Positions 24,966-27,464 of a DNA stretch of 64,000 nucleotides are shown one piece after another. A program made the translations under genes and the position numbers. The notes under the pieces are model-generated. The model was not told the origin of the DNA and did not search any database. It worked only from the letters and a program-made list of their open reading frames with translations. The DNA lies in contig NZ_JAKVCW010000002.1 of NCBI RefSeq assembly GCF_022448905.1, positions 248,001 to 312,000 of the forward strand, given 5' to 3'. Numbering within the stretch: position 1 is the stretch's first letter; every line of letters begins with the position of its first letter. The DNA is from Shimia sp. GTDB taxonomy: Bacteria > Pseudomonadota > Alphaproteobacteria > Rhodobacterales > Rhodobacteraceae.

Positions 24966-24990
24966 GTGCGGGGCAGCCGCTGCCCCGCAC
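24966..24990 (-). terminator. Terminator of the LuxR-type regulator gene
   Basis: A perfect 11-bp stem (GTGCGGGGCAG, loop CCG or CGG depending on strand, CTGCCCCGCAC) is followed on the minus strand by TTTATTTGG. The + side has no T-run. It lies 8 bases past the stop at 24998. Confidence 0.75.
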
Positions 24991-24997
24991 AAGCCCC

Positions 24998-25489
24998 CTA
25001 GTCCTCGGCATCCTCCGCCAACAGGTCATCCAGAAACAGACTGAGCAACTGCGCCCGTCCACTCACACCGGACTTCCGATAAATCGCATTGCTCTGCGCT
25101 TTCACCGTGCCCTCTGACGTGTTGCGCAACCCCGCGATCTCCTGAATTGACATGCCTTTGATGGTGAACAGCGCCACATCCCGCTCCGCCGGAGTCAGCG
25201 CCCAGGCCTCAAACGTCGCCTCCAGATGCTCGCGAAACGCACTCTGCACGCTGCGCAGGCTTTCTTCTGCCTGTGCCTTTTGGGCCAAGGTCCGTCGCAA
25301 GGCCAGCCAGCCAAGGACCACGCCCAAAATAAGCCCCAGCGAAGCCCCAACCTCCAAAAGCTCCCGCGTCTGCCAACTGATCGGCGCAGACCGGGCCCCA
25401 ATGACGGTCAAAGTAATGTCGGCAACGAAGAAAAACGCACAGGCGCCCTGAAGCGCCACCAGCGCAAAGAGCAGCACCGGCCGGTTCAC
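24998..25489 (-). CDS. Membrane-anchored LuxR-type HTH regulator
   Basis: A 163-residue protein with two N-terminal membrane segments (LLFALVALQGACAFFFVADI and LGLILGVVLGWLALRR) and a short coiled stretch. A LuxR/GerE HTH covers about residues 96-155 (LTPAERDVALFTIKGMSIQEIAG, SEGTVKAQSNAIYRKSG). It has no receiver or autoinducer domain, so it probably senses something at the membrane or is released from it. It starts with GTG, preceded by AAGGAG. It lies 36 bp after the secreted acidic-tail gene at 25526 and likely shares its transcript. Confidence 0.85.
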   Translation of the reverse strand: MNRPVLLFALVALQGACAFFFVADITLTVIGARSAPISWQTRELLEVGASLGLILGVVLGWLALRRTLAQKAQAEESLRSVQSAFREHLEATFEAWALTPAERDVALFTIKGMSIQEIAGLRNTSEGTVKAQSNAIYRKSGVSGRAQLLSLFLDDLLAEDAED

Positions 25490-25525
25490 GCAGTTTGCTC
25501 CTTACCGAATGCCACACTGCTACCT

Positions 25526-26107
25526 TCAATCATCATCATCGTCGTCGTCATCATCGTCGCCGCGATCATCGTCATCGTCGTCGTGATCATCGTCATCGTC
25601 GTCGCGATCATCATCGTCATCGTGATCATCGTCGTCATCGTGATCATCGTCGTCATCGTCTTCATCGTGATCATCGTGATCATCGTCGTCATCATCATGA
25701 TCGTCGTCGTGATCGTCATCATCATCCCGATCGTCATCGTGATCGTCATCATCCCGATCGTCATCGTCGTCCTCTTCGCGGCGGTCCCGGCTGCGCGTGT
25801 CGCGCTCTTCTTCGCGCCGCGCATCCGTGCCCAGCAACCAGCCCCCGTTGCCCTCGGAATCCACGTCCCAATAGTCCCGCAGGATTTCGCCCGTGCGTGG
25901 ATTAAAGATAATCTCGCGCTCGCGCCCTTCACGCAGCGCCTCCACCCGCACACGCCCCAGAAACGTCCGCGAGATTTTGATCTCCCCAAAGCCCTGATTG
26001 GCAAGCTGCCGCGTGATGGCATCCACCCGTCCATCGGCAAGCACAGGCGACGCCAGGCACAGGCTGGCCACAGCAAGAACTGGGATCTTTTTGACCATTT
26101 TTTTCAT
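25526..26107 (-). CDS. Secreted PepSY-like protein with Asp/His-rich tail
   Basis: A 193-residue protein. The signal peptide (KKIPVLAVASLCLASPVLAD) ends near residue 25. A PepSY-like domain covers about residues 27-85 (VDAITRQLANQGFGEIKISR, then REIIFNPRTGEILRDYWD). From about residue 100 the chain is almost only Asp with regularly placed His and some Arg, to the last residue. Such a tail should be disordered and bind divalent cations. The DNA is a degenerate GAT/GAC/CAT repeat. ATG 26107 is used because the signal peptide begins there. The LuxR-type gene follows in the same direction. Confidence 0.8.
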   Translation of the reverse strand: MKKMVKKIPVLAVASLCLASPVLADGRVDAITRQLANQGFGEIKISRTFLGRVRVEALREGREREIIFNPRTGEILRDYWDVDSEGNGGWLLGTDARREEERDTRSRDRREEDDDDDRDDDDHDDDRDDDDDHDDDHDDDDDDHDDHDEDDDDDDHDDDDDHDDDDDRDDDDDDHDDDDDDRGDDDDDDDDDD

Positions 26108-26125
26108 ACGTTTAATCCAACAAAT

Positions 26126-26153
26126 ACCGGCGCCGACCAAAGTCAGCGCCGGT
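26126..26153 (-). terminator. Hairpin between the two acidic-tail genes
   Basis: A 12-bp stem with one mismatch (ACCGGCGC at 26126-26133, GCGCCGGT at 26146-26153, plus inner GAC/GTC pairs) is followed on the minus strand by ATTTGTT. It may terminate or attenuate the transcript of the upstream acidic gene and lies about 20 bases before the next start. Confidence 0.5.
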
Positions 26154-26234
26154 GGGTTGCGGTGAGGGGTCTTCGCAAGCTCTAGCACGAAGCCCCAAGA
26201 CAATCACGCCGCAATCAAAACCAAGGACCCTGCC

Positions 26235-26813
26235 TTAGTCGTCGTCTTCATCTTCGTCGTCATCGTCGTCATCGTCTTCATCATCATCGTCGCCGTCGTC
26301 GTCGTCTTCGTCTTCGCCGTCCTCATCGTCATCATCCTCCCCACGGTCGTCGTCTTCTCCGCCATGGTCGTCATCGCGCTCATCTTCTTCGTCGCGATCG
26401 TCTTCTTCCTCGTCGTCGTCATCATCGTGATCATCATCGTCGTCGTGATCCTCGTCGTCATCGTCATCATCGTCGTCGTCATCATCTTCGTCATCGTCGT
26501 CGTCGTCATCATCTTCGTCATCGTCGTCGTCGTCATCATCTTCGTCATAATCATCATCGTCGTCGTCATCGTCCTCTTCATCGTAGACGCCGTGACGCAG
26601 AAGCTCTTCGCCCGCGATCTTATACAGGCTCTCAATTGACAGGCCGTCCTTGTTAGAACGCACGGTCAACACACCGTCCTCAACGGTCACGATCACATCG
26701 GTGTAGCCCGCGCGCTCAAACGAGCGTTCAACGCGGCTTTTGAAGGAATCCGCAAATGCAGTGGTCGACAGGCCAAGCGCAACGGCGGTGGAGGTCAATA
26801 GCAGACGGGTCAT
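26235..26813 (-). CDS. Secreted protein with a long Asp/Glu tail
   Basis: A protein of about 192 residues with a signal peptide (MTRLLLTSTAVALGLSTTAF, cleavage after ADS) and a small folded segment of about 50 residues (FERAGYTDVIVTVEDGVLTV, then SIESLYKIAGEELLRHGVYD). The C-terminal portion of roughly 115 residues is almost entirely Asp and Glu, with rare His, Arg and Gly. The folded part has the size and pattern of half a PepSY unit. The tail makes the protein one of the most acidic possible. AAGGA lies 6 bases before ATG 26813; ATG 26816 is also possible. It shares architecture with the gene at 25526. Confidence 0.8.
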   Translation of the reverse strand: MTRLLLTSTAVALGLSTTAFADSFKSRVERSFERAGYTDVIVTVEDGVLTVRSNKDGLSIESLYKIAGEELLRHGVYDEEDDDDDDDDYDEDDDDDDDDEDDDDDDDDEDDDDDDDDDDDEDHDDDDDHDDDDDEEEDDRDEEDERDDDHGGEDDDRGEDDDDEDGEDEDDDDGDDDDEDDDDDDDEDEDDD

Positions 26814-26937
26814 CATATGTCCTTTGTCGGTTAGGGCCACAGGATCTCCTGCGGCGAGGCCCATCCTGCATCCCAACCGTGCTGTGCCATCTCCATTGCC
26901 TTGAAGTTTAAATCAGCCCCCGTCCGCCCCGCGTTTA

Positions 26938-26963
26938 GGCCCCTAAACTTAGGTTTAGAGGCC
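26938..26963. promoter_or_regulatory. Palindrome between two minus-strand genes
   Basis: GGCC, C, CTAAAC, TTAG, GTTTAG, A, GGCC forms a near-perfect 26-bp dyad, overlapped by a further GTTTAGG/CCTAAAC dyad at 26933-26948. It starts 3 bases after the stop of the small gene at 26966 and about 125 bp before the acidic-tail gene start. No T-run follows on either strand, so an operator is as likely as a terminator. Confidence 0.35.
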
Positions 26964-26965
26964 TT

Positions 26966-27217
26966 TCAAAGCACAAACCGCCGGGTCCGCATCGCGGTCG
27001 GCGGCTTCCCTGTCTGATCCACTGCAACCTCGCCCAACCCGGTTTTCGCAAACACCTGTTGACCAAGCGCCGCGCCCCCGCGCAGCCGCACCCGATACTC
27101 GGAATAGACCACCTCAACCTCTTCAGGCCCGTGTGACCGCGCAACCAAAATAGGCAGCTGCGCTTTGCCTACGTCCTCGAATGTGGATCGCAATCTAGGG
27201 CGTCGCTTCACCGGCAT
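26966..27217 (-). CDS. Small protein of unknown function
   Basis: An 83-residue basic protein (MPVKRRPRLRSTFEDVGKA start) with no signal peptide or membrane segment. The central part (EEVEVVYSEYRVRLRGGAAL) looks beta-rich. AAGGAGG lies 5 bases before ATG 27217, a strong reason to accept the gene. It follows the 69-residue gene at 27255 with a 37-bp gap, so the two probably form an operon. I do not recognise a family. Confidence 0.6.
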   Translation of the reverse strand: MPVKRRPRLRSTFEDVGKAQLPILVARSHGPEEVEVVYSEYRVRLRGGAALGQQVFAKTGLGEVAVDQTGKPPTAMRTRRFVL

Positions 27218-27254: not shown

Positions 27255-27464
27255 CTAATGCACCGTCGAACTGGGCAGCATGACATAGGCTGTCTGGGGC
27301 GTGCCATCGGTCTTGCTGGCCACAATTTTGAGCTGCCGCTCGGTCAGAATGTATTCAATGTTCAGATAACCCTGTGCCTGCATCGAGGCGACAATACGCT
27401 CTGCCAACTGTTTCGCTCTGGACATCATTGACGGCAGCAACTGTGCATTGTTCAAATTGGGCAT
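27255..27464 (-). CDS. Small protein of unknown function
   Basis: A 69-residue protein with an amphipathic helix-like N-terminal half (LLPSMMSRAKQLAERIVASM) and a beta-like C-terminal half (NIEYILTERQLKIVASK and YVMLPSS). AAGGAAA precedes ATG 27464. It is the first gene of a two-gene unit with the 83-residue protein. It has no signal peptide. I do not recognise a family. Confidence 0.6.
   Translation of the reverse strand: MPNLNNAQLLPSMMSRAKQLAERIVASMQAQGYLNIEYILTERQLKIVASKTDGTPQTAYVMLPSSTVH

Follow-up and report, generated by a model that had tools for sequence, protein, structure and literature searches.

Secreted PepSY-like proteins with acidic tails and a two-helix membrane LuxR-type regulator form a conserved cassette, probably an envelope-sensing operon, in Rhodobacteraceae

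The 64,000-nucleotide stretch of Shimia sp. DNA analyzed here (contig NZ_JAKVCW010000002.1; hereafter the window) carries a compact gene set on its minus strand, in the order composite operator, gene A, gene B and membrane LuxR gene. A and B encode secreted proteins with strongly acidic tails, and the third gene encodes a membrane regulator of the LuxR type with two transmembrane (TM) helices. These three consecutive genes had been named by the original prediction, made from the window alone, and re-reading of the sequence bore them out. The set is probably a self-contained one-component envelope-sensing operon, in which B would dock on the membrane LuxR and the LuxR would autoregulate the operon. 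It would be a compact sensing unit of Rhodobacteraceae, consisting of a secreted Asp-tailed pair and a membrane gene switch that probably senses one of the two. The intergenic gaps are 127 nucleotides (nt) between A and B and 36 nt between B and LuxR. Gene A begins with ATGATG, and either ATG is a possible start. The features are as follows.

24998-25489, minus strand: LuxR-type membrane regulator, 163 amino acids, GTG start
25040-25198, minus strand: GerE helix-turn-helix (HTH) of the LuxR, residues 98-150, from Pfam
25361-25384, minus strand: periplasmic loop motif PxxWxxxE of the LuxR, residues 36-43
25403-25483, minus strand: first TM helix (TM1) of the LuxR, residues 3-29, from the predicted model
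25526-26107, minus strand: gene B, 193 amino acids, secreted divergent-PepSY protein with an Asp-rich tail
25529-25777, minus strand: tail of B, residues 111-193, 84% acidic
25865-26044, minus strand: PepSY core of B, residues 22-81, from alignment A3 and a model with a pLDDT of 93
26235-26813, minus strand: gene A, 192 amino acids, secreted, with a half-PepSY-like core and an Asp/Glu tail
26238-26582, minus strand: tail of A, residues 78-192, 90% acidic
26906-26910, minus strand: phased half-site TAAAC, +47 from the repeat start; TAAAC is found at exactly +47 in 33 of 64 loci
26933-26937, minus strand: extra half-site TAAAC, offset +20 beside the repeat; TAAAC is found at +20 in 6 of 64 loci
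26944-26957, no strand assigned: predicted operator core, inverted repeat TAAAC-N4-GTTTA, a single exact copy in the genome, found in 64 of 77 loci

Linkage of B and the membrane LuxR across genomes

Profile searches with B and LuxR were performed on a sample of 149 genomes of the family, each of another genus. B matches were obtained in 66 genomes at E ≤ 1e-3, and LuxR matches in 86 genomes at E ≤ 1e-22. All of the 72 B-profile matches at E ≤ 1e-15 shared the strand of a LuxR match and were upstream of it, within 200 nt in 62 cases (about 8 are at distances above 300 nt, and these include some A proteins), and LuxR was present in each of the 62 genomes with such a B match. At E ≤ 1e-3, 102 of 107 B-profile matches were upstream of LuxR. 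Counted from the other side, B was found upstream of 72 of the 130 LuxR matches when all 107 B matches were used, a different count that agrees with the 72 strong B matches by chance. The other 58 LuxR matches (60 loci minus two repeats, L049 = L151 and L062 = L154) had PepSY_2 and cytochrome b561 (32), PepSY_2 alone (6), another PepSY match (2) or none (18, including L150 and L157, for which the available upstream DNA amounts to 0 and 368 nt). Some PepSY protein was therefore encoded upstream in 112 of the 130 matches of the membrane LuxR family, or 111 of 129 genes, because one LuxR of genome G035 was split into two matches.

In the named genomes, B was upstream in 78 of 80 loci. The two without it were L083, where 10 nt of upstream DNA are available, and L124, which has no B at the locus. 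The 77 loci scored below exclude L131, in which B is present and a spurious nearer match was picked. In a class-wide sample of 289 genomes, four had a core match at E ≤ 1e-5. Two of these belong to the family and the others to one genus of another family; in both of the latter, LuxR is on the same strand and the tail is Asp/His-rich. The LuxR copy number in the window's genome was one, the two further matches being weak and restricted to the HTH. The original prediction had made its module depend on homologues that keep the tails and the LuxR neighbor. The neighbor was kept; the tails varied in chemistry, and every B among the 77 loci extends at least 22 residues beyond its core. At the level of sequence, the comparison of loci shows the predicted operator, (A), B and the membrane LuxR to be one conserved cassette.

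A second widespread cassette was observed, in which a PepSY_2 protein, cytochrome b561 and a membrane LuxR are encoded together (L058, L059, L060, L063 and the 32 loci above); in L060 and L063, a response regulator gene and a kinase-like gene, named by eye, are located upstream. Extra PepSY-B copies lie beside the module in L099, L103, L112 and L210/L214 (G422), and G422 has two LuxRs of the family in tail-to-tail arrangement, the second with a PepSY of its own. As for natural B-LuxR fusions, two candidate frames checked by hand were not in one frame; no systematic search was made.

The periplasmic loop of the LuxR follows the PepSY partner

The GerE HTH (PF00196) of the LuxR scored above the Pfam cut-off (28.3 bits versus 23.5). 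No autoinducer-binding domain was detected in Pfam or NCBIfam scans, and the N-terminal half consists of two TM helices. In the predicted structure (pLDDT of 89), TM1 (residues 3-29) is followed by a loop (30-38), an unbroken helix (39-95) comprising TM2 and a stalk, and the HTH. In alignment A4, consisting of the window and the 77 loci (L124 is not included), P36, W39 and E43 of the loop were invariant, and E46 nearly so. All 78 rows matched NF047608 (LIC13292 family regulator), the sole NCBIfam family at E ≤ 1e-8; the window's LuxR scored 67.4 bits versus a cut-off of 200, with the stalk and HTH half matched and the TM half not.

The motif PxxWxxxE was present in 78 of 78 B-paired LuxR rows. 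It was found in none of the 38 rows paired with cytochrome b/PepSY_2 (which hold one locus twice, L056 = L155), in none of the 8 rows paired with PepSY_2 only, and in 1 of 17 rows without a PepSY match, the one being L150, which is cut by a contig edge. Five close LuxR relatives without B (L124, L151, L152, L157 and L160) all lacked the motif. In a LuxR tree that omitted L124 and was constructed with the loop columns excluded, L151, L152, L157 and L160 took up three positions among the B-paired LuxRs (few branches are well supported). Judged by these alignments, LuxRs with different types of PepSY partner differ in the sequence of the periplasmic loop, and the partner-specific motif is support for, not proof of, the docking of B on the loop.

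Apart from the loop, TM1 holds a conserved pair: Q14 (25448-25450, minus strand) was invariant in 20 of 20 rows of a set spanning both LuxR classes, and C17 (25439-25441, minus strand) was kept in at least 90% of the same set.

A predicted operator upstream of the cassette

The inverted repeat TAAAC-N4-GTTTA was first seen as common to the upstream regions of ten loci. An exact copy was then found upstream of LuxR in 64 of the 77 named loci. Within the same loci, 65 sites were counted in 161 kilobases (kb) upstream of LuxR versus 3 in 437 kb elsewhere, and these three lie 3.1-3.3 kb upstream in L099, L103 and L112, the loci with an extra upstream PepSY-B match. The repeat is followed by phased half-sites, with GTTTA at exactly +30 in 23 of 64 loci. 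The 66 nt after the repeat contain 0.39 GTTTA and 0.89 TAAAC half-sites per locus, and random 66-nt pieces contain 0.02 of each. In the window's 4.29-Mb genome, the exact operator occurs once, at this operon, versus 11 occurrences of the reversed control. An operator was present anywhere in 54 of 62 genomes with B versus 34 of 87 without (p 1.8e-9), and among the sites listed, 18 of 27 B genomes had a site near the module.

In 48 loci of LuxRs without B, one exact site was found in 153 kb. The operator is retained in L160 and L124, where B is replaced by another secreted protein, and no operator was found in the stretch examined for L151, L152 and L157. We assign the operator-binding role to the membrane LuxR because of the linkage between the two; the simplest reading of the sequence data is that it binds the predicted operator and controls its own operon. 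The 'dedicated membrane sensor' of the original prediction is well supported by the tight linkage, the partner-specific loop motif and an operator that is single in the genome.

There was no sign of a large regulon in the window's genome, with its one exact operator; sites with mismatches were sought in the window only. An extended pattern with a variable third half-site was too strict, matching in 9 of 149 genomes with 5 of 10 sites away from the module. An open reading frame (ORF) of 387 residues with an acidic N-terminal part, in L225 (G175), is preceded by a composite operator that has CAATGG at its end.

The core is conserved in B and the acidic tail in A

The B core is probably a divergent PepSY domain. 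The B of the window matched Pfam PepSY_2 (PF13670) below the cut-off (E 0.013; 15.9 bits versus 24.3), and at E ≤ 0.01 six of 76 cores matched PepSY_2 and three PepSY (PF03413), the window's core being in neither group. The PepSY fold consists of a helix with an antiparallel sheet, and the core was predicted as a helix and four strands (pLDDT of 93). The B profile and that of relatives that are clear PepSY_2 proteins, such as the small protein of L058 (E 1.1e-14), also cross-matched. A Foldseek search of the core against the PDB gave no significant match (best 4exr, E 1.1, prob 0.85), nor did a comparison with viral structures. In alignment A3, consisting of the window and 75 of the 77 cores (L071 and L142 were left out), R52, R64, R77 and D78 were invariant, and E65 nearly so. 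The core was net positive in 52 of 77 loci. For gene A, no Pfam match above the cut-off was obtained.

Both proteins begin with Sec-like signal peptides, as judged by eye. The tail of A contains 83 Asp, 20 Glu and 3 His among 115 residues, and that of B contains 67 Asp, 8 His, 4 Arg, 3 Glu and 1 Gly among 83 residues. The original prediction of tails of about 95-115 residues holds for A, and the tail of B is somewhat shorter. The maximum number of Asp/Glu in a 60-residue stretch was 57 for A, 50 for B and only 19 for any other ORF of at least 60 amino acids in the window, so the tails are not a product of chance. Asp is encoded by GAC and GAT 49 and 34 times in A and 26 and 41 times in B, and such mixed codons indicate that the tails are not fresh single-codon repeats.

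Among the 77 named loci, the B tails past the core were 22-145 residues in length (median 71), with a median net charge of -20 (range -70 to +9), an Asp:Glu ratio of 1682:323 and 74 His in 5582 residues. His is thus not conserved and the B tails range to basic, and the distinct cation preferences suggested earlier for a Glu-rich and a His-rich tail are not supported; a conserved Glu-versus-His tail pair was rejected on the same counts. An acidic tail as the defining feature of B was likewise ruled out by the Gly/Asn tails of L120 and L140 and the Pro/Arg tail of L125. Short B tails are found in L107, L145 and L147. There was no correlation between core charge and tail charge in B (Spearman -0.17, p 0.14).

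In the A slot, the tail was acidic in 45 of 50 scored matches, with a median net charge of -39 over all 50 and a ratio of Asp to Glu of 1880:249; an acidic-run ORF without a PepSY match occupied the slot in 7 more loci. Four of the five non-acidic 'A' matches are other genes (a small upstream ORF in L073 and L146, an extra B-like copy in L103 and L112), and L120 is a real exception. The tail is kept and the core drifts in slot A; the core is kept and the tail chemistry drifts in slot B. This pattern argues, from sequence conservation, for B as the signaling partner and A as the main polyanion.

The variable length and composition of the B tails would be expected if the tails were neutral slippage by-products of GAY-rich DNA, that is, tolerated appendages without function. 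The synonymous codons are mixed, however, Asp exceeds Glu about fivefold across the 77 loci, and acidity of the A slot is kept where its core is not recognized, so that we regard this explanation as the least probable of those considered. The preserved acidic runs of the A slot and the predominance of Asp over Glu in both slots also agree with a storage or matrix operon, in which A and B would be periplasmic or surface polyanions (a Ca2+/Mg2+ buffer, mineral or matrix) and the LuxR a local switch with its own signal, never touching B. This is unlikely, since the LuxR loop motif goes with the PepSY-B partner and paralogous membrane LuxRs are preceded by PepSY_2 proteins that have no tail. From the latter, the PepSY domain, not the tail, is what is common to these regulators.

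In some A proteins (for example those of L080, L100, L137 and L138; by eye), a short motif like [TP]G.E[VI]......DF was seen between the PepSY-like core and the acidic tail; it is absent from the window's A. In L117, a non-acidic YLTGGQ near the end of a Gly-rich tail is common to A and B.

A possible link with calcium

In L160 (G110), a protein with an Asp-rich tail and EF-hand-like loops (Pfam EF-hand_6, E 0.004, below the cut-off) is encoded between the operator and LuxR, in B's place. Of 25 extra operator copies away from the module in B genomes, 4 have the start of an RTX or EF-hand gene within 450 nt (L220, L229, L230 and the doubtful L262); none of 32 copies in genomes without B does, and the rates at random positions are 0.9% and 2.1%. 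The test covered 57 of 60 fetched stretches, not all sites, and L277-L279, which lie beside modules, were excluded. A link with calcium is hinted at by these sequences, not shown. No EF-hand or RTX was detected in the window's A or B by the Pfam scan.

When 41 genomes were searched for EF-hand proteins related to that of L160, one was found in the same genome and one elsewhere, besides the query, and no membrane LuxR was seen by eye beside them.

The system might be a 'calsequestrin-plus-sensor', in which a periplasmic poly-Asp buffer for Ca2+ or other cations has its loading reported by the PepSY domain to the LuxR, which would tune buffer synthesis, and the same regulator would reach secreted RTX/EF-hand proteins in some species. 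Calsequestrin has an Asp-rich tail. We consider this version speculative and somewhat doubtful.

Proposed mechanism and alternatives

In the model that we favor, B would be exported to the periplasm, where its mostly basic PepSY core would dock on the acidic periplasmic loop of the LuxR and set LuxR activity. The LuxR, probably a dimer, would pass the signal through the continuous TM2-stalk helix to the HTH, a twist or shift being transmitted directly to the DNA, and the HTH would bind TAAAC-N4-GTTTA and control the operon making A and B. The disordered polyanionic tails, carried by A nearly always and by B usually, would be the ligand-facing part. What they bind may be a divalent cation, with Ca2+ the most likely, or a cationic molecule that damages the envelope. 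The load would be read from how much B is free, and the operon would make more tail protein as needed. The identity of the ligand and the sign of the regulation, with B repressing or activating, are guesses.

Several observations weigh against this model. Five of the 107 B-profile matches at E ≤ 1e-3 were not upstream of LuxR; in L203-L206 the PepSY gene has no LuxR nearby, and in L196 it points away from its LuxR. Thirteen of the 77 loci have no exact operator, although two of them have a site with one mismatch and five have less than 1.3 kb of upstream DNA. For 9 of 27 B genomes, the sites listed included none near the module, and of the 43 sites in the 27 genomes 23 were elsewhere. The L160 LuxR, without B, keeps the loop Trp and both Glu, and two B-paired LuxRs of another family (L212 and L213) keep the Trp and Glu and not the Pro. 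The independent motif-partner pairs number 2 on well-supported branches and 5 on all branches, so that a sign test cannot reach 0.05, and inter-protein covariation of B and LuxR gave no enrichment at the loop (effective depth 65). The net charge was -5 or higher in 9 of 77 B tails, so B can do without polyanion chemistry. The test of the EF-hand/RTX association was devised after the association had been noticed, and gave a Fisher p of 0.03, or 0.08 without L262.

The same mechanism with another ligand would make the operon a sensor of cationic peptides or envelope damage, with tails that sponge antimicrobial peptides, polyamines or lysozyme and release the LuxR when occupied. The DbfQRS reporter, which is described as induced by polymyxin B, thymol and LPS-core (lipopolysaccharide) mutation, follows the same PepSY-sensor logic (PMC12714742). 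We hold this ligand to be improbable: no resistance or LPS gene was noticed by eye in the neighborhoods, with no search aimed at them, the window's genome has a single operator, and the extra operator sites elsewhere lean to Ca2+-binding genes. It is also conceivable, and quite unlikely, that B protects the loop of the LuxR against a periplasmic protease; without B, the LuxR would be released or lost by proteolysis. PMC7768729 gives the view that PepSY domains inhibit peptidases, but the periplasmic loop is very short and no protease gene was noticed by eye in the cassette neighborhoods.

Neighboring genes in the window

Upstream of the cassette lies what we take to be a trpB-like gene, and downstream, on the opposite strand, are an ABM-domain gene and a DUF2237 gene. 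An ORF of 69 residues without a signal peptide (27255-27464, minus strand), located between A and the trpB-like gene, has a half-PepSY look by eye, and similar ORFs are found upstream of the module in L036, L042/L146 and L073. A further ORF of 83 residues (26966-27217, minus strand) ends in RRFVL at the C-terminus; like endings occur in L035, L040 and L042, in which this ORF seems fused to the 69-residue kind. Neither ORF had a match in the Pfam scan.

Comparison with known systems

The closest parallel is the DbfQRS pathway of Vibrio cholerae, as described in PMC12714742. There, as here, a small periplasmic PepSY gene is located directly upstream of a membrane sensor gene; DbfQ interacts with the sensor domain of DbfS and biases it towards phosphatase activity, and the pathway is induced by the polymyxin B, thymol and LPS-core conditions mentioned above. 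The contact is electrostatic, with the predicted pairs R84-D62 and K102-E69 tested by mutation, and by analogy the same is proposed for B and the LuxR loop. PA2658/PA2659-BqsS of Pseudomonas aeruginosa has two tandem PepSY proteins, as A and B here (PMC12714742). However, DbfQRS senses through a histidine kinase and a response regulator, whereas the cassette has one kinase-free two-helix membrane LuxR, and its PepSY proteins carry long acidic tails, unlike those of DbfQRS. The word LuxR is absent from the main text of PMC12714742.

Membrane-tethered regulators with a LuxR-type HTH that act on a neighboring gene, as proposed here, are described for Eggerthella lenta (DadR, CadR and HcdR; PMC9734109). 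These have 10-12 TM helices and small-molecule inducers, in contrast to the two helices, short loop and secreted partner of the present LuxR. The likeness to the LIC13292 family (NF047608) is in the stalk and HTH half, the TM half of the window's LuxR being unmatched. Metal binding has been described for the periplasmic PepSY protein LanP (LanPepSY; PMC12482762) and for UipA (cited in PMC12714742), which resemble B in this domain; the parts of these sources used here mention no acidic low-complexity tail or LuxR partner. Calsequestrin, a Ca2+ buffer of stores, is described as interacting with a membrane Ca2+ sensor (PMC4471903, PMC8080761). It is eukaryotic and unrelated to A and B, and serves as an analogy only. 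Literature searches for acidic or Asp-rich tails with PepSY found no such system among the matches listed, and those joining PepSY and LuxR gave one paper among those searched, on an unrelated subject.

PepSY-sensor modules with kinases, and membrane LuxRs with 10-12 helices as described in PMC9734109, were thus known already. By comparison with these systems, the best reading is that the cassette is a relative in logic of the DbfQRS PepSY sensor, self-contained, autoregulated and kinase-free. An explanation of PepSY proteins beside kinases is only now emerging (DbfQ, 2025), and in the cassette a domain of this kind seems to govern a membrane transcription factor that works without a kinase. 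Extreme poly-Asp proteins of bacteria are thereby placed in a genetic setting and given a possible role. The docking motif and the operator, both predicted, and the partner losses found in nature make the whole path from periplasm to DNA testable with few genes.

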